Below are positions 2,216 to 13,956 of a stretch of DNA of 14,555 nt, in pieces. Source of the stretch: Bacteroidales bacterium (GTDB lineage: Bacteria > Bacteroidota > Bacteroidia > Bacteroidales > UBA10428); assembly GCA_016926235.1 (NCBI GenBank), contig JAFGOZ010000286.1, positions 1 through 14,555 on the forward strand, given 5' to 3'. The position numbers were made by a program, and so were the translations under genes. The first letter of the stretch is position 1, and every line of letters begins with the position of its first letter. The notes beneath the pieces are model-generated. The model was not told where the DNA came from. It saw only the letters and a list, made by a program, of their open reading frames with translations, and did not search any database.

Positions 2216-3730
2216 ATGCCTCTTCCCATTAATATATCGGAACTTCTCAAAGGTCGAATCATAGAACACGACCGCATCGAGTTCAAAGAAGGTTGGAATC
2301 CTGATTCAATCTATCGTTCTGTTTGTGCCTTTGCAAATGATATTGAAAATATTGGGGGCGGTTACATCATTGTTGGAGTTGAGGATGAAAACGGAATGGC
2401 TAAGCGTCCTGTAAAAGGCTTGCCAATAGAACAACTCGATGCCATTCAAAAACAAATGATAGGGTTCAATAATCTAATCAAGCCAGTTTACACACCCAAA
2501 CTTTCTATCGAGGAAGTGGACAACAAACAAATTATTGTTCTTTGGGTTCCGGGCGGTGCAAACCGTCCATACGAGGTTCCGGAACAAATAACAGCCAAAG
2601 AAAAGAAATTCTTTTATTACATCCGTAAGTACTCCAATTCGGTCAAAGCGAATCAGCAAGAACAACAAGAGCTAATAAGCCTTGCTAATCAAATACCGTT
2701 CGATGATAGGGCAAATATACAAGCCTCGCTCAATGATATTTCAACAACTTTAATTCGCGACCATTTACGCATTACAAAAAGTCGTTTACACGAGTTTTCC
2801 GAATCGCTATCTAAAGCCGATTTGTTGGGTCAAATGGATTTGGTTTCGGGTCCACCCGAAATGCTTTTTCCCCGGAATGTTGCCCTGATGCTGTTCTCAG
2901 AGAGTCCTGAAAAATTCTTCCCCTATACCCGTATCGAAATTGTAGAGTTCCCTAATGGTGCTGACGACCCTGAATTTAATGAACGCCCACCCTTTACTGG
3001 CCCTGTTCAACAACAAATTACAAAAGTTCTCGACTTTTTTAAAACGAATATACTTCAGGAAAAAATCATCAAACAACCCGACAAAGCTGAAGCAGTCCGA
3101 ATTTGGAATTATCCGTTAGAAGCCTTGGAAGAAGCTATTGCAAATGCAATTTACCATCGCGATTACCAGGTACGCGAACCCGTTGAGGTTCGCATTTATC
3201 CTGATTCAATCTGTATCTTAAATTACGGTGGTCCCGACCGCTCTATCAAATCCGATGCTTTCAAAATCGGTCCAGTGAAACCACGTCGTTATCGCAACCG
3301 TCGTTTAGGTGATTTCCTTAAAGAACTAGACCTTACCGAAGGCAAAGCCACCGGTATTCCTCGAATTAAAAAAGCTTTGAAAGAAAACGGCTCTCCCGAA
3401 CCTTTATTCGACTTCGATGAAGACCGAACTTTCTTTGAAGTTGATTTCTATATTCATCCGGCTTTTAAGGAAGATATTGCTGTACTGAAGGTGAAAACTA
3501 AACGTCAGGATAATAAGATAGCTCCCGATTTTAAACTAAATGAAAGTTCGGAGAAAGTCGTAAACCTGATTCGGAATAACTCTTACATAACTGCGTCAGA
3601 ATTGGCAATTTCTATTGGAATCACAAGCCGTGCAATAGAAAAAATAATCGGAAGTCTTAAAGAATCTGGACTATTGGAACGCAAAGGTTCTCGAAAAGGA
3701 GGATATTGGGTAATTAATAGTTCGGAATAA
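2216..3730 (+). CDS. Schlafen/AlbA_2-domain, RecG-like ATP-binding transcriptional regulator
   Basis: A 504-residue cytoplasmic protein of the broad AlbA_2/divergent AAA_4 family. Residues about 10-145 are the AlbA_2 (Schlafen-type) domain, with the IEFKEGW motif (21-27) and the glycine-rich GGGYIIVGVEDENG segment (47-60). Residues about 300-415 resemble the GHKL-like C-terminal domain of 'RecG-like' helicase homologues, with EAIANAIYHRDY (306-317) and EGKATGIPRI (375-384). The C-terminus (about 443-500) is a winged helix: ITASELAISIGITSRAIEKIIGSLKESGLLERKG. Proteins of this type are usually called ATP-dependent DNA helicases or transcriptional regulators, but there are no helicase motor motifs here. 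The biochemical role is unknown, and some relatives sit in defence islands. The start fits the -7 box 18 bases upstream. The stop lies in the first unit of a four-fold 12-bp repeat. Confidence 0.8.
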   Translation: MPLPINISELLKGRIIEHDRIEFKEGWNPDSIYRSVCAFANDIENIGGGYIIVGVEDENGMAKRPVKGLPIEQLDAIQKQMIGFNNLIKPVYTPKLSIEEVDNKQIIVLWVPGGANRPYEVPEQITAKEKKFFYYIRKYSNSVKANQQEQQELISLANQIPFDDRANIQASLNDISTTLIRDHLRITKSRLHEFSESLSKADLLGQMDLVSGPPEMLFPRNVALMLFSESPEKFFPYTRIEIVEFPNGADDPEFNERPPFTGPVQQQITKVLDFFKTNILQEKIIKQPDKAEAVRIWNYPLEALEEAIANAIYHRDYQVREPVEVRIYPDSICILNYGGPDRSIKSDAFKIGPVKPRRYRNRRLGDFLKELDLTEGKATGIPRIKKALKENGSPEPLFDFDEDRTFFEVDFYIHPAFKEDIAVLKVKTKRQDNKIAPDFKLNESSEKVVNLIRNNSYITASELAISIGITSRAIEKIIGSLKESGLLERKGSRKGGYWVINSSE

Positions 3731-3766
3731 AGTTCGGAATAAAGTTCGGAATAAAGTTCGGAATAA
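3719..3766 (+). repeat. Four tandem 12-bp units, each containing an in-frame stop codon
   Basis: The unit AGTTCGGAATAA is present four times without a mismatch (3719-3730, 3731-3742, 3743-3754, 3755-3766), followed by a partial AGTT. The first copy encodes the last three residues (SSE) and the stop of the upstream gene. Because the unit is a multiple of three, the later copies repeat the same Ser-Ser-Glu-stop reading. A similar AGTTCGGAGAAA sits within the gene near 3546. This looks like slippage expansion of the gene's end. Confidence 0.95.
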
Positions 3767-3808
3767 AGTTATATAAAGGTTTTAATCCCACGCCCTGATG
3801 TCTTTCTG

Positions 3809-4677: not shown

Positions 4678-4706
4678 CAAAACTACCCGCACGGGTAGTA
4701 GTTTTG
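4678..4706. promoter_or_regulatory. Palindromic operator 1 overlapping divergent -7 elements
   Basis: The core CTACCCGCACGGGTAG (4683-4698) is a perfect 6-bp inverted repeat with a 4-base spacer. It is flanked on the left by TAGTTTTG read on the minus strand (4685-4678), and on the right by TAGTTTTG read on the plus strand (4699-4706). Both match the -7 consensus TAnnTTTG exactly, and neither has a good -33 element. The minus-strand one would start the LuxR-type gene with a leader of about 55 bases. A bound regulator would cover both promoters. Another palindrome, AAAAAGCAAGCTTTTT (4659-4674), lies just to the left. Confidence 0.65.
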
Positions 4707-4817
4707 AACGTTGGGCAGGGTGTTGTTTTGTGGTTACCCCAAGTAGCAAAGGCTTGACATTCACCGCGTTTCTGGGCTGTACCACGGCGTTTCGATGATC
4801 GTTTTATGTTAATAAAA

Positions 4818-4833
4818 CTACCTTATCGGGTAG
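4818..4833. promoter_or_regulatory. Palindromic operator 2
   Basis: CTACCTTATCGGGTAG repeats the operator pattern with one mismatch in the left half. Pairing extends outward (AAAACTACC at 4814-4822 with GGTAGTTTT at 4829-4837). Its centre is 33 bp from that of the third copy, about three helical turns, so dimers on the two sites would lie on nearly the same face of the DNA. Confidence 0.65.
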
Positions 4834-4850
4834 TTTTAATATCTGAAAAT

Positions 4851-4866
4851 CTACCCTATCGGGTAA
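4851..4866. promoter_or_regulatory. Palindromic operator 3
   Basis: CTACCCTATCGGGTAA has a perfect left half and five of six bases in the right half, and shares the TATC spacer with the second copy. It ends 24 bases before a candidate -7 element at 4890-4897, so it occupies the place where a -33 element would be. That geometry is typical of activators that contact RNA polymerase. Confidence 0.65.
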
Positions 4867-4889
4867 TAGATATGCATTTCTTTATTGCT

Positions 4890-4897
4890 TAATATTG
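4890..4897 (+). promoter_or_regulatory. Candidate -7 element for the MauE-like gene
   Basis: TAATATTG matches TAnnTTTG at five of its six fixed positions. A start site about six bases further on would give a leader of about 55 bases before the ATG at 4957. No TTTG-like -33 element is present; the third palindrome lies there instead. The call depends on the operator geometry. Confidence 0.35.
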
Positions 4898-4956: not shown

Positions 4957-6447
4957 ATGCAAAAGTTTCTGTCAACCCGCCGCTCTGTGATTATACAGAC
5001 AGTCTCATACCTGTACATACTGCTTTTTGTATACGCAGCCATAAGCAAGTTATTGGAGTTCGAGGATTTCAGGGTACAGCTGGCACAGTCACCCATGCTA
5101 AGTGCTTATGCCGGGTCTATAACATGGGTGGTACCTTTAATTGAAATTATCACGGCAATTCTATTGTTCTTTAGTAAAACCAAGCATTGGGGATTTCTAT
5201 GTGCTTTCGTCATTATGGTCATGTTCAGTGCCTATATTTTTATTATTCTTAATTACAGCGTTTTTGTCCCATGCTCATGTGGCGGTATCATCGAACAGTT
5301 GAACTGGACTGAGCACCTGGTATTTAATTTGTTTTTTGTATTACTTGCCATCACAGGCTGGCTGCTTACAAGACCAATAAAGAAATTACAGGGAAGCGTC
5401 CTTAAAACAACGCTTATTCTTGTTTCCCTCGGTGTTGTTGGCGTCTTAACCGTAACAATGCTCTATCTTTCTTCGGAGCGCATTATTTACCGTGAAAATC
5501 CTTTTATAAGGCGCTATTCTCACGATGTGATCAAATCCGGTGAGATCGATCTGGATGGCAATGCCTACTATTTTGCCGGCGATGAGGCCGGTATCATTTA
5601 CCTCGGAAATTACAGCAGCCCTTTAAGGGTTTCCTTATTAGACACCGCACTTCAGAATCCGGTCGTAAGAACCATCAGGGTAAGAGAGGCCGATTTGCCG
5701 TCCAAGGCTTCCCAGATTAGAGTAAACCCTCCTGATTTTTATCTTATCGACGGGCAAATTTCAAGGATACTCAAAGGAAACACAGCTGACTGGAAAGTTA
5801 CCCGGCGTTGGGACGGAAACCTCCGGTTTTCTAACTACCGGTTGATTTCGGATAATAAAATGGCTTTCAGGGCCTTTTTGCCCGGAACTTTCAGGCAAGC
5901 GCTGGGGTATTTGCAGCTTGCAGACTCTTTGCCTTACACGCTGCAACCGGATTTACTCGAAAAACAACTGGACGGTAATTTTGACGTGGACGGAATCCTG
6001 TGTTACGACAGTCATTCCAAGCAGGTTGTTTATACATATTATTACCACAATGCCTATCTGATAACCGACAGCGTGCTGAACTGGCTGGCCGCGGGAAATA
6101 CAATCGACACCATTACACGTGCGCAGTTGGTGATTGACTCCAGCCGGCTTCAGCGCGCTTTGGTATCCTCGCTGATGGTAAATGCTTCGGCTTTTGCCAC
6201 AGACGGGTTGCTCTATGTCCGGTCTAAAATAAAAGGTCGTTATCAACCCGAAAAAACATGGAAACAAACCGGAACCATTGATGTGTATGATCTCAGTACC
6301 GGTAATTACCGCACAAGCTTTTATGTATATCACGCATCCGGGGAACCGGTAAGGCAATTCTTTGTCATTGGGAAAAGTTTCTATGGTTTTGCAGGCAACA
6401 TTCTGGTACGATACAATTTAGAAAGAATGCTTAAAAGCAATGAATAA
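4957..6447 (+). CDS. MauE/DoxX-like redox membrane protein with large C-terminal extracytoplasmic domain
   Basis: A 496-residue inner-membrane protein. Residues 1-140 form a four-helix MauE/DoxX-like module (helices about 11-31, 55-72, 78-100 and 118-137) with the paired cysteines VPCSCGG (C106, C108) at the end of the third helix. This CxC position is characteristic of MauE-type proteins, which work in disulfide or thiol chemistry for exported partners. A fifth helix (about 148-170) anchors a domain of about 320 residues (175-496), probably periplasmic and rich in beta-strand-like segments (GEIDLDGNAYYFAGDEAG, FYLIDGQISRIL, TIDVYDLSTGNYRTSFYVY), which I do not recognise; it could be propeller-like. 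Typical MauE proteins are only about 130-180 residues, so this is a long fusion form. The gene lies 80 bases upstream of a small four-cysteine exported protein, a plausible substrate or partner, and downstream of three palindromes facing the LuxR-type gene. Confidence 0.75.
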   Translation: MQKFLSTRRSVIIQTVSYLYILLFVYAAISKLLEFEDFRVQLAQSPMLSAYAGSITWVVPLIEIITAILLFFSKTKHWGFLCAFVIMVMFSAYIFIILNYSVFVPCSCGGIIEQLNWTEHLVFNLFFVLLAITGWLLTRPIKKLQGSVLKTTLILVSLGVVGVLTVTMLYLSSERIIYRENPFIRRYSHDVIKSGEIDLDGNAYYFAGDEAGIIYLGNYSSPLRVSLLDTALQNPVVRTIRVREADLPSKASQIRVNPPDFYLIDGQISRILKGNTADWKVTRRWDGNLRFSNYRLISDNKMAFRAFLPGTFRQALGYLQLADSLPYTLQPDLLEKQLDGNFDVDGILCYDSHSKQVVYTYYYHNAYLITDSVLNWLAAGNTIDTITRAQLVIDSSRLQRALVSSLMVNASAFATDGLLYVRSKIKGRYQPEKTWKQTGTIDVYDLSTGNYRTSFYVYHASGEPVRQFFVIGKSFYGFAGNILVRYNLERMLKSNE

Positions 6448-6455
6448 TAAAGAAA

Positions 6456-6467
6456 AATCGCGCGATT
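6456..6467. other. 12-bp perfect palindrome in the gap between the MauE-like and small-peptide genes
   Basis: AATCGCGCGATT is self-complementary over 12 bases and lies just after the stop at 6447. A small stem AGGT/ACCT follows (about 6476-6488). It has no loop, so it would serve as a protein site rather than an RNA hairpin. It is unrelated in sequence to the three upstream operators. Confidence 0.3.
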
Positions 6468-6527
6468 GCAGGAGAAGGTCGAAAACCTGTATAAAAGAGT
6501 AGACCGTAACTATAATTCGTAAACATC

Positions 6528-6818
6528 ATGAAAAGCAGATTTAAAAAACTGCTGCCTGTCATGGTTATGGCAGTAGCAGTAGCAGGCGCTTTTTCGACCC
6601 ATGCTATGGATAAAAGAGCGGAGCGGGCCGATCTTGTTAATGGATATATTAAGTTAAACTCCATGGGAACTTCGTGCCAGGCAGAAAGTTCAACAGTTTG
6701 CACAACTGAGAATACCGGAGAGCAATGTAAAGTTGGATATTCTTCTTCAGGGGATGATTTATTCCTGATTGAAGCTGGCAGATGTATACAGCCGCTGTAC
6801 CGGCCGGCAAATAATTAA
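6528..6818 (+). CDS. Small exported four-cysteine protein, DUF6520-like
   Basis: A 96-residue protein with a clear Sec signal peptide: basic start MKSRFKK, hydrophobic core LLPVMVMAVAVAGAF, and a likely cut after THA at residue 26. The mature part of about 70 residues has four cysteines (C50, C58, C67, C86), an even number suited to two disulfides, within GTSCQAESSTVCTTENTGEQC and GRCIQPLYRP. Size, signal and cysteine spacing recall the DUF6520 family of Bacteroidota, whose function is unknown; I assign it by resemblance only. It follows the MauE-like redox protein in the same orientation with an 80-base gap, consistent with an operon in which the membrane protein oxidises or reduces it. It has no lipobox. 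Alternatives are a secreted signal peptide, a toxin or a surface adhesin. A strong terminator follows. Confidence 0.7.
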   Translation: MKSRFKKLLPVMVMAVAVAGAFSTHAMDKRAERADLVNGYIKLNSMGTSCQAESSTVCTTENTGEQCKVGYSSSGDDLFLIEAGRCIQPLYRPANN

Positions 6819-6839
6819 TCCCTGAATCCTGACGCATTA

Positions 6840-6872
6840 AAAGGAAGTGACCTGCCAGTGGTCACTTCCTTT
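6840..6872. terminator. Bidirectional terminator between convergent operons
   Basis: AAAGGAAGTGACC (6840-6852) pairs perfectly with GGTCACTTCCTTT (6860-6872) over 13 bp around the loop TGCCAGT. The A-rich left flank and T-rich right flank provide a short U tract in each direction. It sits 22 bases after the stop of the small exported protein and 25 bases past the stop of the S9 peptidase gene. Confidence 0.85.
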
Positions 6873-6896
6873 CAGCAACAGCAGTGTCAAAGAATA

Positions 6897-9515
6897 CTAC
6901 GGCATCCAGCTTTGTTTTTCCCCTCCTTTCAGAAAATGCCCGAACCATTGATGTACCTTTATGGTCAGGTCTTTTTTGTTAGCGAGATCATTGAAAGCAT
7001 GGCCCTCATTAGGATAAATGAGCATTGTATTCTGCTTGCCCAATCTTTTCATGGCAAAATGAAATGCCATGGTCTGCGTATAGTGGACATGATAGTCCTT
7101 CCCTCCTGTGTACAGTAAAAATGGAATTCGGATGTTTTGTGCATGGTATTGCGGTGAATTATCCAGGTAACCCTGGTAATCTTCAAAGAGTGATTTCTTC
7201 ATTCGCAATTGAGAATCTTCGTACTGATAAAATCTTGAAGTTGTTCCCTCTATATTAAAGTAATCCGTTGGAAAGTCAGAAATACCGGCCCCGGCAATTG
7301 CCGTGGCAAATAAACGGGTTTGTGTAATGGTGAACATCGTTTCATACCCGCCAAACGACTGGCCCATGAGCCCAATCTTTGCAGGGTTTACCGGAGCGCT
7401 TTCCATGGCTGCCTTAGTTCCTGAAATAATACAGTCTGACGCCGAAAAACCCGGTTCCCCTGTCTCATATTCAATATCAGGCAGAAAAACAAAATAGCCG
7501 TCCGCTGTCAGATTGGCCGGATTAAATCCTATCGGATTGTAATAGGTAGGAGTGATGTACTGATGCCAATAATGTGATTGCTTTTCGTAAACATGCACCA
7601 CCATGGGATAAAGGGAGTCTTGCCGGTAATCCATAGGATAGTATAGAATACCGGTAAGTTTCTTCCCGTTTTTATTGTGATACGTGATCCTTTTTCGTTC
7701 ATGCCAATGGTAATCTTTATAATGCGGATTGCTTTGAAAGATCTGTATTAAAGTGTCCGTAGCGGCATCATAGAGCATGAGCCGCGGAGGTATATCATAG
7801 TTTTCAACAGTGAAGCCAAGGACTTTATTGTTTAAGGATATCTTTGGCCATCGTGTATAACATGGTTCCATCATAATATATACCATGCTGCCATCAGCCT
7901 TTTTACAGGCATATCCGATAGTATCTCCCTTCCTGACCCGAAAAAGCATTACTGCTTCATTCAAGTATTCTCCTCTCTTGTTTCTCATGTCAGACTGGCT
8001 TCTTGTGATATTATCGATCAACCTGAACTGCGTTCCGTTTTCACGTCCCCGTGTGACTCGCTCGCAAGGGGTATTGCCTGTGGAAATTTTCCATAGATCG
8101 TACCGATCGTACATAAATACCGCTTCATCGTCCTGCATCCATAATTCCTGCGAATATGTTAAAATATCTTCTGTGCCTTTTATACCGGAAACCTTTTCCA
8201 GCTTTTCGGTAAGGTTATCATGCAGGTCTTTCCGGGTATCGTAACACCACCGATGCCTATCTTTAAAATACAGCACATATCTTCCCGAAGGGCTTATATT
8301 TAAACTTCCGACTGTGTTTACAAGTTTCTTTATCAGCAATTTTTTTTCGCCGCTTTCCATATCCATTATGTAAACATCGAAAGTATCTATCAAAGGATCA
8401 TTTTTTAGCCTGTACTGAGCAGGATTATAAATCAGCACATAGTCTTTGCTCATACCATAGAACGCTTCAGGAGTGTTTTGATCGGTCACCTGTATATATT
8501 TGTTACCGGCAGGGTCCCACATGCTTATTTTGGGTATATTATAGCTCCATACCGACATCCTTTGCCTTACATAAGGATCGTCCGTTCTCCATATTTCCGG
8601 GATATCCATGTCTGTTATCGTCTTTTCAGGTTTGTGGGCAAAGAAAATCCGCTTTCCGTCAGGCGAAAACTCCAGCGGATATCTCCCGAGCGAAACAAGG
8701 ATATGCTCCCGGGGGAACTTTCCTGTTTCAACCGGGTTTAAATACCTGCTTTTTTCCTTATTTAAATCGTAATATCCCACTAACCCCACATCTGTTGTGT
8801 CCCGTAAATTTTGAACAGGTCCCAGGATAAAGGCCAGAAAATTCCCTGATGAATGCCATGTGAGTTCCAGAACCTGCCTGTTATGCGGAATTGGGACACT
8901 TCTTACTGGATAGCCTTTTCTCAGACTGAAGATATTAATTTTGTCAGCATCCGTTCCGGATGAAAGCACGCAAATCCCTTCGGAAACCGGGTTATAACAG
9001 TATGCTGAAACCCCGGTAAGAGACAGGGAATCATTATTCTGCAAAGACCTTAATAGTAACCTTTCAGAAGACTTATGGAATACCAAAAGGTATTGTTCGT
9101 TATTACTTATCTGAAATCCGGTGCCGGAAGGAAAAACCTCCTCCCGGTCCGAATTCAGGAACATTAAATAACTTCGTTCGTTTTGATTATAGCTGGCAAT
9201 CGAATCGCCCAAAAATTTCAGACTGCCTGCATGATCCATCACATACTTTTTATTTCCGTGTGTTTGTTGAATAATCAGTGTTTCTGATTCCGTATTATAC
9301 AGGCTATAGCCTATCCAGCTTCCTTCTGCTGAAAGTCCGTTGTTCTCCAGGTTGCACCATTTATTATATTCAGTCGGGGTTATCGCTTTTTGCTTATTAT
9401 TCGACTGCGACCAACCGGTATACGGTAACAGGCATACGATACATGCCATAAGCATGTACCACCATATACATGAAAGATACTTCATAGTGTTGCCGGAATT
9501 AAATGGGTTACTCAT
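6897..9515 (-). CDS. Secreted S9 (prolyl oligopeptidase) family peptidase
   Basis: An 872-residue exported serine peptidase. The C-terminal alpha/beta-hydrolase domain (about 600-865) carries the nucleophile elbow GQSFGG with Ser720, the acid in LLYTGGKDYHVH (Asp807), and the His in YPNEGHAFND (His839), in the canonical order Ser-Asp-His. The preceding 550 residues form a propeller-like gate with blades such as LEFSPDGKRIFFAHK and LNISPSGRYVLYF. Members cleave short peptides, often after proline, but specificity cannot be read here. The ATG at 9515 starts one base after the SusD stop (TAA-A-ATG), which suggests translational coupling. An in-frame ATG at 9485 (residue 11) gives a cleaner signal peptide, MKYLSCIWWYMLMACIV through GWSQ, and may be the true start. 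Last gene of a SusC-SusD-peptidase operon, suggesting peptide rather than glycan use. Confidence 0.88.
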   Translation of the reverse strand: MSNPFNSGNTMKYLSCIWWYMLMACIVCLLPYTGWSQSNNKQKAITPTEYNKWCNLENNGLSAEGSWIGYSLYNTESETLIIQQTHGNKKYVMDHAGSLKFLGDSIASYNQNERSYLMFLNSDREEVFPSGTGFQISNNEQYLLVFHKSSERLLLRSLQNNDSLSLTGVSAYCYNPVSEGICVLSSGTDADKINIFSLRKGYPVRSVPIPHNRQVLELTWHSSGNFLAFILGPVQNLRDTTDVGLVGYYDLNKEKSRYLNPVETGKFPREHILVSLGRYPLEFSPDGKRIFFAHKPEKTITDMDIPEIWRTDDPYVRQRMSVWSYNIPKISMWDPAGNKYIQVTDQNTPEAFYGMSKDYVLIYNPAQYRLKNDPLIDTFDVYIMDMESGEKKLLIKKLVNTVGSLNISPSGRYVLYFKDRHRWCYDTRKDLHDNLTEKLEKVSGIKGTEDILTYSQELWMQDDEAVFMYDRYDLWKISTGNTPCERVTRGRENGTQFRLIDNITRSQSDMRNKRGEYLNEAVMLFRVRKGDTIGYACKKADGSMVYIMMEPCYTRWPKISLNNKVLGFTVENYDIPPRLMLYDAATDTLIQIFQSNPHYKDYHWHERKRITYHNKNGKKLTGILYYPMDYRQDSLYPMVVHVYEKQSHYWHQYITPTYYNPIGFNPANLTADGYFVFLPDIEYETGEPGFSASDCIISGTKAAMESAPVNPAKIGLMGQSFGGYETMFTITQTRLFATAIAGAGISDFPTDYFNIEGTTSRFYQYEDSQLRMKKSLFEDYQGYLDNSPQYHAQNIRIPFLLYTGGKDYHVHYTQTMAFHFAMKRLGKQNTMLIYPNEGHAFNDLANKKDLTIKVHQWFGHFLKGGEKQSWMP

Positions 9516-9516
9516 T

Positions 9517-10938
9517 TTAATTGTATCCCGGGTTTTGCGGATTTAGTGAGGGATTAAGCAATAACTCATTTTCAGGGATCGGCAGTAACCTGTCCGTAGT
9601 GTTCCAACCGGGTTTTAAGGGACTCAGTACCTGATCCAGTTTTCCAGTCCGCTTTAAATCAAAAAAACAATGCCCAATTTCGGTAAACAATTCATGTCTG
9701 CGTTCACGGTAAATCGCTTCGAGCAGCTCTTCACGGTTTGTGGCCAAAGTTCCATCCAAACCGGCGCGATCCCTGATGATATTCAGATCCCGGCATGCCT
9801 CTGTTAAATTCTCCAGTTGCGCGTACGCCTCGGCCCTTACCAGGTAAAGCTCTCCCAGACGAAAGAGAATGGTATATTCTTTAGAAGGATTCGTATTATT
9901 TTTTTCTTTATACTTATAGGAATGATACCACAATTGCGTCCCATCGCTTACCCCTTTTACCCAATGCGTCATTCTCAGATCAGAAGGTTCAAAACTTTCT
10001 GCCAGATTAGGTGTTAGGGCAACATATGGCGGAGGGGCTGTTGTAAATATGAATGACTGGCCTTCATGAGTGTTTCCATTGGTATATTTTGCTGCCCATT
10101 GCCAAAGGGTGGTTGTACTCTCTTTTAAAAACACTTTGTCCAGATCGGTTTCCCATGTATACAGGCCGGTTTGATTTATCACATAAGATGCTGCGTCAAC
10201 GGCATTCTGCCACTCCTGCCGGTATAGGTATACCCTTGCCAACAGGGCCATCACCACCGCTTTGTTCGGACGTGTGCGGTCAGCCGACTGGTAATTGTCA
10301 TCCAGCAGGGTTACTGCGGTTGTTAAATCATTTATCATCAGGGTGTAAGCTTCGCTTTCAGGTTGTCGTTTTGCATCTTTGTTCTGCTGATAGTCGGTTG
10401 TGGTGATGTAAGGGATATCTCCAAACAGGTTAACCAGGTAAAAATGCAAAAGGGCTCTCACAAAAAGCGCTTCCCCGGTAAGCTGTCCTTTCACATCATC
10501 AGTCAGATTTCTGGAAGCGTCTGCCTTTTCCACGAGGCTGTTGGTACTGTATATCAAATAATATGCATTATTCCACCAGGAGCTTACAAAAGGCTCCGAA
10601 GGCAGAAGGGAATTGGTATAATAATTTGTTTGTGCTGTTGAGGTACCATAATAATCCAGTTCACCGGCATACAAACTCATAAAATAGCTCATATCGTGCA
10701 GCATCCCCTGGTCTCTCATACGGGCATAGATGGCCAACATGGCTGAATGTGCCGTAGAAGCATCTTCAAAAACCTCCCCGGCAGTCAGCTGGGAAGAAGG
10801 AATGTCTACTTCCACAAAGCTTTCGCAGGCATTATATTGCAGGAACAAAAAAAACAGCAAGCTAACACGAAAAAGAAAAGCAAATCCCTTATGGGGCTTT
10901 TTTCCGGAAGAATGAAAACAGTATTGAGATAATTGCAT
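9517..10938 (-). CDS. SusD/RagB-family outer-membrane lipoprotein
   Basis: A 473-residue surface lipoprotein that would cap its SusC partner and bind substrate. The N-terminus has a hydrophobic segment (FRVSLLFFLFLQYNAC) ending at Cys38, the probable lipidation site, followed by acidic residues (ESFVEVD) of the kind that direct Bacteroidota lipoproteins to the cell surface. The N-terminal SusD region (about 45-230) shows the usual helices: AHSAMLAIYARM, LTGEALFVRALLHFYLVNLFGDIPY and VVMALLARVYLYRQEWQNAVDAASYVI. The C-terminal RagB/SusD region has LFRLGELYLVRAEAYAQLE, IYRERRHELFTEIGHCFFDLKR and the closing LLPIPENELLLNP. Length is normal. It lies 18 bases after the SusC stop and ends one base before the S9 peptidase ATG. 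The peptidase neighbour suggests an oligopeptide ligand; this is inference, as SusD sequence does not show specificity. Confidence 0.92.
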   Translation of the reverse strand: MQLSQYCFHSSGKKPHKGFAFLFRVSLLFFLFLQYNACESFVEVDIPSSQLTAGEVFEDASTAHSAMLAIYARMRDQGMLHDMSYFMSLYAGELDYYGTSTAQTNYYTNSLLPSEPFVSSWWNNAYYLIYSTNSLVEKADASRNLTDDVKGQLTGEALFVRALLHFYLVNLFGDIPYITTTDYQQNKDAKRQPESEAYTLMINDLTTAVTLLDDNYQSADRTRPNKAVVMALLARVYLYRQEWQNAVDAASYVINQTGLYTWETDLDKVFLKESTTTLWQWAAKYTNGNTHEGQSFIFTTAPPPYVALTPNLAESFEPSDLRMTHWVKGVSDGTQLWYHSYKYKEKNNTNPSKEYTILFRLGELYLVRAEAYAQLENLTEACRDLNIIRDRAGLDGTLATNREELLEAIYRERRHELFTEIGHCFFDLKRTGKLDQVLSPLKPGWNTTDRLLPIPENELLLNPSLNPQNPGYN

Positions 10939-10956
10939 AGGATTAAGTTTTAACGA

Positions 10957-13956
10957 TTAAAATGACATTTGTATCCCGGTTGTTATAACTCTCAGAGGAG
11001 GGAGGCTGTTTGGATAAACAGATTCCGGATCAAAACCTTCATAAGAAGTAAGTGTGAGCAGGTTTTGGCCCCGTAAGAAAACACTGAACCGGATATTTTT
11101 TAACACTGCTTCGGGAAGCGAATAAGTCAATGAGATATTTTTCAGCCGGATATAAGAAGCGTCTTCGATTACTGCATCACTTTGCTGGTAATTCGTGTAC
11201 CGGTTGTATACATCGGTATTTATCCCCGTTGTATAGGGCTGATAAGTAACACGGTCTCCCGGTTCCTGCCAGTGATTCGTAACACAGACGGGCTGATTGG
11301 CCATTGTCCCGGGAACCCCCGTAATATAAAGGAAAGAATAATTCTGCTGCCTGACAAGCTGGAATAAAAAGTCCAGTTGAAATCTCCCGATCTTAAAGCT
11401 GTTTTGTATTCCTCCGAAAAACTCCGGGTTCATATCCTCTGTCATTTCACGGTCATCCTCACGGGTAAGGGCTCCGTCATCATTATAATCCTTGAATGTA
11501 TACAACCCGGTTTCCGGATCAAGGCCCTGGTAACTATACACTTTTTTAATATTCAAAGGTTTTCCTACCACATAAGTATTGGCATAGGTAGAGCCTTCGA
11601 GCCCCGGAAATGATACGAGTTTATTTCGCGGGAAACTGATATTGAATGTCGTGTTCCACGAGAAATTACGCTGTTGCAGGTTCATGCTTCGAAACGTAAG
11701 CTCCCAGCCTGTATTTTCCACAGTGGCATTCAGATTTGCCTGGATCGAGGAGAATCCGGTTGTCCCCGGTAATGGAATGCCCACTAGTTGACCGGAAGAA
11801 CGATTCCGGTACCAGGAAGCCGTAAAGTAGAAACGGGCATTAAAAAAACCGGTTTCAAGCCCGAATTCCAGCTTTTTGTTCGTTTCCCAGCCAAAAATCG
11901 GGTTAAAAAGGCGCGAAGGTTCTATTACCGATACACCTCCATAGGTATTGCCGCTGACCGTATAGGTGTCGATATACTGGTAATCACCTATCTGGTCGCT
12001 CCCACTGGTTCCGTAGCTACCACGCAGTTTCCCGAAACTCAAAAAGGGAATGGCATTTTTTACAAATTCTTCATCTGAAAATAGCCAGGCAAATCCCACG
12101 GCACCGAAATTGGCAAATTGCCTGCCGGGACCAAACCGGCTTGAACCGTCCCTTCTGCCTGTTAAGTTCAGGATATACCGCTCTTTATATGAAAAATTAA
12201 TCCTCCCGAAAACAGCGTTGTATTTATATGCTGTTTTATTGTCAGCATAAATATATATTTCGTTGGCTGCAGCCAGGTTTTCAATAAGACTGTTACTGGA
12301 AAAACCATATCCCTGGTTTACCAGTTGCGTGGAAGTTAACTTTTGAAAGGTACTTCCTGCCAAAACTTTTATCCTGAAATCTCCCAACTCTGTTTCATAG
12401 GTTAACTGGGGCTCTGTAATCCACGATTCACGGTATACATTATTCTTATATACGGCAGAATATTCACTTGTGGCGTTCCATACAGGATCGTACATTGTTG
12501 AAGGCATGGTCTGCAGGTCCATAAACTTTGTGCTGGTATAGCCCATGCTGTTTTTAAGGCTAAATCCCTTAAACAATTCATAAGATAATTGTATGTTGCT
12601 TACCAGGTCGTAACTATCGGACCGGTATTTACTCTCCATTGAGGCCAGCGGGTTTTCCCATGTGCTTGATTCCCAGTTAAGGCTCCCGTCCTCATTATAT
12701 AAGGCGGGGGCATTGGGAGGCAGCTTGTATATTTGCGAAGCGTAGACTACAGTTGCCGGCAGATTGTTTTGCTGTACGGTATAACCCGAAGACATGTGAA
12801 CTGTGAACCTTTGATTGGGACTTGTGTGCGATAAGCTTGTATGTACCCCTGCCTTGTTATAGACGAAGGTTTTTGGATATACCGTTGTCTCCCTGTGATA
12901 ACTGCCGCTTATTAAGTACGTGGTATTATCATTTCCACCGGAGATTGTGCCCCTGATGTCGTTTATTTCTGAAGTTCCCCCGATCAGCACATCCTCCCAG
13001 TTGGTATAACGGTTTTTGTCCCAGGTGCCATTTACATCATACGCATTGACCGGGTATTCCGTATAGCCGTCATTGGCATAAGCTTCTTCGCGCATTTTAA
13101 CATATTCGGGGGTTTTCATCAAATCCAGGTAGGTTTTAACCCATCCCTGGCCATAGGAGTAATCCATGTTAAGCAGCGTTTTTCCCTTTTGCCCCTGCCT
13201 TGTGGTTATAAGCACCACTCCGTTAGCTCCCCTGGAACCATAGATAGCCGTGGCATCTGCATCTTTCAACACCTCAATACTTTCAATGGAAGATGGGTCT
13301 ATGCTGGTTAACGGATCGATATCCCCGGAAATGGCACTATTCGTATAGGAAGAGCCGACAGCTCCTGAAGAATACGGTACTCCATCGATAATATACAGGG
13401 GATCGTTTCCATCTGAACGAAGACTGTTTTGACCACGGATACGGATTTGAAGCCCGCTGCCCGGAAGACCGGAATTCTGTGCTATATATACCCCGGCCAT
13501 GCGTCCCTGTACCGCGGAAAGCACATTGCTCACCGGCTGGTTTTCTATTTCTTTGGCGGCTATTTTAACGATACTCCCGGTACTTTCCCTTTCCTTTACA
13601 TTGTAATATCCTGCATTTATGGTTATCTCTGAAAGGGTAATCACTTCTTCGCGCAGGTGAATGTCAATTTGTAATTGTCCGTTTACAGCAACCTCCTGTG
13701 TTTCAAATCCGATATATGAAAACGAAAGTACGGCATCGGGCGGAACATTTTTAAGTATATAATGGCCGTCTTTGTCGGTGGCCGTTCCGGTGACAGCGCC
13801 TTTAACAAGCACATAAACGCCCGGTAGCGGCTCACCTGGTTCATCGGTAACAATACCGGTGACAGTTAACTTTTGGGCATTGACAATTGCAATAATGCCC
13901 ATAAGTAAAATCAATAACAACAGTTTCTTTGAAAAATTATATTTGTGTTCTTTCAT
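10957..13956 (-). CDS. SusC/RagA-family TonB-dependent outer-membrane transporter
   Basis: A 999-residue TonB-dependent beta-barrel. It has a signal peptide (MKEHKYNFSKKLLLLILLMG through NAQ, residues 1-28) and a carboxypeptidase-regulatory-like domain (about 31-103: VTGIVTDEPGEPLPGVYV, DGHYILKNVPPDAVLSFSYI). The plug (about 110-255) has VQGRMAGVYI, IRIRGQNSLR, PLYIIDGVPY and the SusC signature IEVLKDADATAIYGSRGANG. A long 22-strand-type barrel follows, ending in an aromatic residue (TTGIQMSF), as outer-membrane insertion requires. There is no N-terminal STN domain, so it is not expected to signal through an anti-sigma FecR protein, and no sigma/FecR pair is nearby. The start has an A-rich leader (CCCAAAAAACTATG) typical of the phylum. 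First gene of the operon with the SusD-like and S9 peptidase genes; substrate unknown, probably peptides. Confidence 0.93.
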   Translation of the reverse strand: MKEHKYNFSKKLLLLILLMGIIAIVNAQKLTVTGIVTDEPGEPLPGVYVLVKGAVTGTATDKDGHYILKNVPPDAVLSFSYIGFETQEVAVNGQLQIDIHLREEVITLSEITINAGYYNVKERESTGSIVKIAAKEIENQPVSNVLSAVQGRMAGVYIAQNSGLPGSGLQIRIRGQNSLRSDGNDPLYIIDGVPYSSGAVGSSYTNSAISGDIDPLTSIDPSSIESIEVLKDADATAIYGSRGANGVVLITTRQGQKGKTLLNMDYSYGQGWVKTYLDLMKTPEYVKMREEAYANDGYTEYPVNAYDVNGTWDKNRYTNWEDVLIGGTSEINDIRGTISGGNDNTTYLISGSYHRETTVYPKTFVYNKAGVHTSLSHTSPNQRFTVHMSSGYTVQQNNLPATVVYASQIYKLPPNAPALYNEDGSLNWESSTWENPLASMESKYRSDSYDLVSNIQLSYELFKGFSLKNSMGYTSTKFMDLQTMPSTMYDPVWNATSEYSAVYKNNVYRESWITEPQLTYETELGDFRIKVLAGSTFQKLTSTQLVNQGYGFSSNSLIENLAAANEIYIYADNKTAYKYNAVFGRINFSYKERYILNLTGRRDGSSRFGPGRQFANFGAVGFAWLFSDEEFVKNAIPFLSFGKLRGSYGTSGSDQIGDYQYIDTYTVSGNTYGGVSVIEPSRLFNPIFGWETNKKLEFGLETGFFNARFYFTASWYRNRSSGQLVGIPLPGTTGFSSIQANLNATVENTGWELTFRSMNLQQRNFSWNTTFNISFPRNKLVSFPGLEGSTYANTYVVGKPLNIKKVYSYQGLDPETGLYTFKDYNDDGALTREDDREMTEDMNPEFFGGIQNSFKIGRFQLDFLFQLVRQQNYSFLYITGVPGTMANQPVCVTNHWQEPGDRVTYQPYTTGINTDVYNRYTNYQQSDAVIEDASYIRLKNISLTYSLPEAVLKNIRFSVFLRGQNLLTLTSYEGFDPESVYPNSLPPLRVITTGIQMSF

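Follow-up and report, generated by a model that had tools for sequence, protein, structure and literature searches.

Three palindromes between a PAS-LuxR regulator gene and a MauE-DUF6520 module of Bacteroidota are very probably operators of the regulator

Features of the locus

The window, that is, the whole stretch of DNA analyzed (14,555 bp), carries a luxR-type regulator gene divergent from a gene for a MauE/DoxX-type membrane protein, and three copies of a palindrome lie between the two (Table 1). When CTACCC-N4-GGGTAG (16-mer) was sought across the window with up to two mismatches, matches were identified at 4683 to 4698 (no mismatches), 4818 to 4833 (one), and 4851 to 4866 (one) and nowhere else. 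The expected mean was 0.25 matches, and not one dinucleotide shuffle out of 200 reached three copies. An earlier note made from the sequence alone had reported these three copies with zero or one mismatch and a distance of 33 bp between copies 2 and 3, and both observations were reproduced; copies 1 and 2 are 135 bp apart. A position weight matrix derived from the boxes of other loci gave its three highest scores in the window to the same copies (19 to 24 bits). The next-best score, 9.5 bits at 3497, fell within coding sequence, and no box was found before the S9-SusD-SusC operon. The better unit is the 18-mer ACTACNC-N4-GNGTAGT, of which copy 3 is the weakest example in the window. The C before the right half-site, previously described as invariant, occurs in all three window copies but does not hold in the family, where this position is mostly A or T (symmetrized matrix). 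Neither Rfam nor tRNA scanning of the window gave a match.

Table 1. Positions of genes, boxes, and candidate promoter elements at the divergent locus
Feature	Position	Strand	Remarks
LuxR-type regulator, 252 aa	3857..4615	-	PAS-like sensor fold (about 40-155) and C-terminal GerE domain (194-246)
Exact -7 match, TAGTTTTG	4678..4685	-	Overlaps copy 1, reads towards luxR; candidate element
Box copy 1, ACTACCCGCACGGGTAGT	4682..4699		0 mismatches to ACTACNC-N4-GNGTAGT; luxR side of the divergent region
Exact -7 match, TAGTTTTG	4699..4706	+	Overlaps copy 1, reads towards MauE; candidate element
Box copy 2, ACTACCTTATCGGGTAGT	4817..4834		1 mismatch to the 18-mer; forms a tandem pair with copy 3 (33 bp away) and is its distal box relative to MauE
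Box copy 3, TCTACCCTATCGGGTAAT	4850..4867		Differs at 2 positions from the 18-mer and at 1 from the 16-mer; proximal box, putatively activating
-7-like element, TAATATTG	4890..4897	+	Differs from TAnnTTTG at 1 position; lies 31 bp from the copy 3 center; putative MauE operon promoter
MauE/DoxX-type membrane protein, 496 aa	4957..6447	+	C-terminal part without assignment; putative target
DUF6520 small protein, 96 aa	6528..6818	+	Downstream of MauE, same operon; putative target

The regulator carries a GerE domain (PF00196, 51.5 bits against a cut-off of 23.5) that is present in 34/34 members of its family. By sequence the PAS domain is weak (PAS_3 in 3 of the 34 members); the AF2 model (pLDDT 91) matched 3clo, VqmA, and PAS/LOV structures, which identifies the layout of a one-component, VqmA-like PAS-LuxR protein. 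The PAS-like domain may sense a ligand. Pfam searches at an E value of ≤0.001 found no receiver domain in the window regulator and no autoinducer-binding family in this protein or the 34 members. Across 395 sampled Bacteroidota genomes, the regulator family was identified in 19 (E value, ≤1e-40).

The window joins this LuxR and its boxes to the MauE-DUF6520 module, which together with a convergent S9 peptidase gene forms a module of its own; SusD and SusC genes follow in the window. Searches of the 395 genomes yielded 30 MauE loci (one per genome), 21 of them full-length, and among these 21 a DUF6520-like gene and an S9-like gene were each present in 18. Neither this LuxR nor the box (≤2 mismatches) was found beside the MauE relatives elsewhere (0/30 stretches of 3 to 4.5 kb). 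Eight genes located upstream of MauE relatives comprised five encoding an AraC-type HTH above the Pfam cut-off, one below it, one HTH_3, and one DUF932. A second linked LuxR-MauE pair is suggested by relatives from one source with 85% (LuxR) and 76% (MauE) identity; the longest contig is given as 36,079 bp for both, and by these equal figures the pairing does not seem to be unique.

Several other features were observed in the window. By eye, the start of the DUF6520 product resembles a signal peptide, and the protein contains four cysteines; the MauE-DUF6520-S9-SusD-SusC region (4957 to 13956) looks like a Bacteroidota module. A 12-bp unit, AGTTCGGAATAA, is repeated in 4.3 perfect tandem copies at 3719 to 3770, across the stop codon of an AlbA/Schlafen-type gene (2216 to 3730). 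The ArdC-type anti-restriction protein encoded at 878 to 1921 has a zincin-like domain, and its presence hints that the left side of the contig belongs to a mobile element.

Conservation of the box beside homologous luxR genes

A LuxR profile was made with 34 homologues out of 120 among the matches listed. The profile search of Bacteroidota genomes confirmed 524 relatives, from which the best 80 of 524 loci were kept. Another 18 loci from the phylum sample (L143 to L152 and L174 to L181) brought the set to 98, with L153 (without LuxR) and L173 (from the genome of L035) left out; dereplication at <75% LuxR identity reduced the 98 loci to 47. Within about 500 bp of luxR, the window pattern was found in 22 of the 47 dereplicated loci at ≤2 mismatches, where 29 permuted half-sites gave 1.03 on average and 4 at most. 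At ≤1 mismatch it was found in 10/47 (0.07 for permuted half-sites), and exact copies were present in 3/47 (0 for permuted half-sites). The earlier note had named a lack of conservation next to homologous regulators as grounds for rejecting its operator proposal, and on this point the proposal withstood the comparison.

The generalized 18-mer at ≤1 mismatch was likewise identified in 22/47 loci, compared with a mean of 0.05 and a maximum of 1 in 59 permutations, a figure to be read knowing that this box was derived from the very loci it scores; the window-only pattern was not tuned on them and gives the cleaner figure. At either threshold 25/47 dereplicated loci carried no box near luxR, and in some loci a box lay about 1 to 3 kb from luxR, before a receptor operon. 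Only the 4-bp spacer was conserved, with spacers of 0 to 3 and 5 to 10 bp near luxR in zero or one locus each. A de novo ranking of 6-mer palindromes with spacers of 0 to 14 placed overlapping forms of the box in the first four positions by enrichment; this ranking used the 80 whole loci without dereplication, and near-copies from Prevotella contribute to it. The same change was present in both arms (ACTATCC..GGATAGT) at L013:8750 and L022:7925, as expected if a dimer reads the two halves alike.

Distance between boxes and -7 elements

The -7 consensus of sigma-ABfr is given as TAnnTTTG in PMC7366714. As previously noted, copy 1 overlaps exact matches to this consensus on both strands, with TAGTTTTG at both of its edges, and the -7-like element proposed downstream of copy 3 is present in the imperfect form listed in Table 1. 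Across the 46 boxes of the dereplicated loci, TAnnTTTG started exactly 30 bp from the box center in 18/92 flanks, while no other offset exceeded 3. With one mismatch to TAnnTTTG, the count at offset 30 was 26/92, compared with a mean of 0.92 at other offsets. An exact -7 was absent at offset 30 from 74/92 flanks, a number in which each box contributes two flanks, one or both of which may be no promoter. Offset 5, which places the -7 over the box edge, accounted for 2/92 flanks. In the fuller, redundant set, offset 30 was seen in 34/215 flanks and a second peak of 13 at offset 68, which equals 30 plus a tandem spacing of 38 bp; 14/16 tandem box pairs in the dereplicated loci were 37 to 39 bp apart.

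If the -7 is centered seven bases before the start, the box center would fall near -41 and the box would cover the -33 region, as for a class-II activator. The preferred offset of 30 corresponds to this position (overlap with the upstream promoter element, about -41) when transcription starts are placed by this rule. Allowing ≤2 mismatches in the box and a -7 element at 29 to 31 bp, 85 promoters were tabulated in the 98 loci, a redundant set. These read into genes for OMP_b-brl_3 (n = 27), FeeM-like (n = 11), ThiF (n = 8), and alpha/beta hydrolase (n = 6) proteins and one small conserved gene; a further 21 precede unassigned genes, 11 have no gene called, and none of the 85 reads into luxR. 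The tabulated promoters place offset 30, an activator position, before partner genes and never before luxR.

Measured against the family, the window pair deviates in its spacing (33 rather than 37 to 39 bp) and in its imperfect -7 at offset 31, and it lies outside the criteria of the 85-promoter table. Copy 3 nevertheless nearly fits the family geometry before MauE-DUF6520. Neither flank of copy 1 carries a -7 at offset 30.

Genomic distribution of exact boxes

Exact 18-mers were searched for in whole genomes. In 19 luxR-bearing genomes, which came from 20 of the 80 loci chosen after their boxes were known, 13 sites were identified in 11 genomes, with 10 assigned to the luxR locus by coordinates. 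The remaining three were one in coding sequence, one terminator-like, and one intergenic with TATTTTTA at offset 30. A further 18 luxR-bearing genomes, the rest of the phylum sample, contained eight sites in five genomes, all within the luxR locus. By comparison, a single site, in one genome, was found among 50 genomes chosen from the 376 of that sample in which no family member was detected at an E value of ≤1e-40. Exact sites were therefore found in 16/37 luxR-bearing genomes and 1/50 without a detected member (Fisher P = 1.3e-6, with genomes treated as unrelated and kinship ignored). The reversed pattern, used as a control, was matched at 7 places in the first 19 luxR-bearing genomes, at 3 in the further 18, and at 18 among the 50 without a detected member. 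As 18/21 exact sites of luxR-bearing genomes are held by the luxR locus, the box marks a local circuit, not a broad regulon. A genome scan of the kind proposed earlier as a way to find a regulon showed exact sites to be concentrated in luxR-bearing genomes, and there at the luxR locus, but revealed no wide regulon.

Viral contigs gave six exact matches to the 18-mer ACTACCCNATCGGGTAGT. No LuxR relative was found in them and tblastn with six window proteins was empty in those stretches, and the matches were taken as chance. A plasmid search returned nine records, all with <60% identity, including one from Riemerella in which LuxR adjoins ThiF. The Riemerella anatipestifer record L100, labeled a plasmid, has this LuxR-ThiF arrangement, and the genes around it, mnmG and gldH among them, are of chromosome type.

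Proposed function of the palindromes

Considered as a whole, the data are best explained, with a probability that we put at about 0.77, if the palindromes are dimer operators of the adjacent PAS-LuxR, a member of a Bacteroidota-wide family that would read ACTACNC-N4-GNGTAGT, and if copies 2 and 3 activate MauE-DUF6520. The operator assignment of the three palindromes on its own is very probable. PAS-LuxR dimers would bind all three, and copies 2 and 3, as a pair in tandem, would activate the MauE-DUF6520 operon. Centered about 41 bp before the presumed start, copy 3 would cover -33 and help RNA polymerase at the weak -7 by class-II activation, with copy 2 adding a second dimer. For copy 1, feedback on luxR or a role as an upstream site is probable.

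The earlier note, which had proposed the palindromes as the regulator's own operator set, therefore appears right in substance. Its suggestion that the MauE operon is activated from copies 2 and 3 agrees, small deviations aside, with the 30-bp geometry seen elsewhere and is the likelier output. Its other suggestion, repression or autoregulation of luxR at copy 1, drew on the TAGTTTTG overlap and is not supported by the family, given the rarity of such overlaps at offset 5 and the lack of tabulated promoters reading into luxR. The same overlap on both strands would favor a general repressor model, in which the LuxR dimer occludes promoters, copy 1 covering the -7 elements of both strands and copies 2 and 3 blocking MauE. 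However, a -7 at offset 30 is far commoner than one at offset 5, which suits activation and makes this model unlikely.

Less likely again is that an unlinked regulator other than this LuxR reads the boxes, with the LuxR gene just a frequent neighbor. The link to LuxR was drawn from sequence, several loci have the box about 1 to 3 kb from luxR before the receptor operon, and the presence of LuxR in all loci follows by construction from their having been fetched by it. Against this, exact sites are concentrated in genomes with LuxR, and no further gene family recurs in more than 39 of the loci. Most improbable is that the palindromes act as intrinsic terminators or form RNA hairpins, with GC-rich arms and flanking A/T tracts. 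Copies 1 and 2 do match AAAACTACC..GGTAGTTTT or nearly so, and one exact genomic match off the luxR locus (L099) is intergenic, with a T-run after it. Yet the fixed half-site letters and single conserved spacer length, the placement of boxes in divergent regions before genes, often in pairs and at a preferred distance to a -7, and the dependence of exact sites on the presence of the regulator all argue against hairpins, as does the absence of an Rfam match in the window.

FeeM/LuxI-fold partners and a candidate signaling circuit

Where a locus has both luxR and a gene for a FeeM/LuxI-fold acyltransferase, the box lies between them in 21/23 cases, and this luxR-box-acyltransferase arrangement is a candidate autoinduction circuit. 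The exceptions, L006 and L062, have synthase and LuxR with no box between, and the 12.6 kb around a second FeeM-like gene in genome G107 (L153) contain no LuxR and no box; these three cases count against a strict link. Fold comparison assigned the FeeM-like partner proteins a FeeM/LuxI-type GNAT fold, whereas searching solved structures with a sequence profile of the same family gave no match. Against PF21926 two members scored 20.7 and 17.1 bits, below the curated cut-off of 27, and a third had no match at an E value of ≤0.01. Beside luxR in L148, L149, and L151, similar-looking runs of small genes (100 to 140 aa) adjoin LuxR and the FeeM-like gene; L148 also has a 392-aa gene without a Pfam match, and L149 an AraC-type gene after the synthase.

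A cognate synthase is present beside some relatives. None was seen in the window (best tblastn E value for 12 FeeM-like proteins, 0.38), and the window LuxR therefore looks like a solo. A wider reading, which we offer tentatively and hold to be possible rather than probable, is that the box serves as the 'lux box' in a signaling system, so far undescribed, that spans the Bacteroidota. This could comprise a PAS-LuxR receptor, a divergent FeeM/LuxI-fold N-acyl synthase under positive feedback, a ThiF/TcdA-like adenylating enzyme that might cyclize the N-acyl amino acid, and an OMP_b-brl_3 receptor in the outer membrane. The window regulator would then be a solo rewired to the MauE-DUF6520 module, which has other regulators nearby elsewhere, and would respond to a signal from another source within the cell or from neighbors.

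LuxI/LuxR-type signaling is not generally known from Bacteroidota. The larger interest lies outside the window, in an operator code, promoter geometry, and target list for a so far uncharacterized family of regulators found across the phylum, and in a candidate small-molecule autoinduction circuit. An acyl-type signaling system of Bacteroidota's own could be tested with one synthase, one receptor, and the 18-bp box. Among the matches listed for the open-licence literature (titles and abstract openings, with the box sequence not a query), no description of the box or of a LuxR-FeeM-ThiF locus was found.

Comparison with known systems

The GerE DNA-binding domain is common to the window regulator and NarL-type response regulators, from which it differs in having no detectable receiver domain. 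The best match in both sequence and fold was 3clo, a LuxR-domain protein of Bacteroides thetaiotaomicron (NP_811094.1) whose entry title names no function; it has the same two-domain layout and shares 21 to 22% identity. The partner acyltransferases differ from the N-acyl amino acid synthase FeeM (PDB 2g0b) in sharing 12 to 16% identity with it and scoring below the Pfam cut-off, and their genes lie outside the window.

In the acyl-homoserine lactone circuits of LuxI/LuxR, the lux box is located near -42.5. The present locus resembles these circuits in its palindromic box in a divergent region beside the receptor gene and, among relatives, in the LuxI/FeeM-fold acyltransferase across it. Unlike them, it has a PAS-like sensor in which no Pfam autoinducer-binding domain was found, a different box sequence and promoter type, and no synthase in the window.

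VqmA, as described in PMC8284805, binds a short palindrome and activates vqmR, reading GG-N6-CC or GG-N9-CC. The window box differs in sequence from these sites, the proteins share 13 to 17% identity, and the ligand of VqmA is DPO. With the VqmA-vqmR and VqmA-qtip systems of Vibrio cholerae and phage VP882, in which VqmA is a quorum-sensing receptor, the window regulator nonetheless has in common the combination of PAS and LuxR-type DNA-binding domains in a one-component protein, and VqmA chains were its best full-length fold matches after 3clo.
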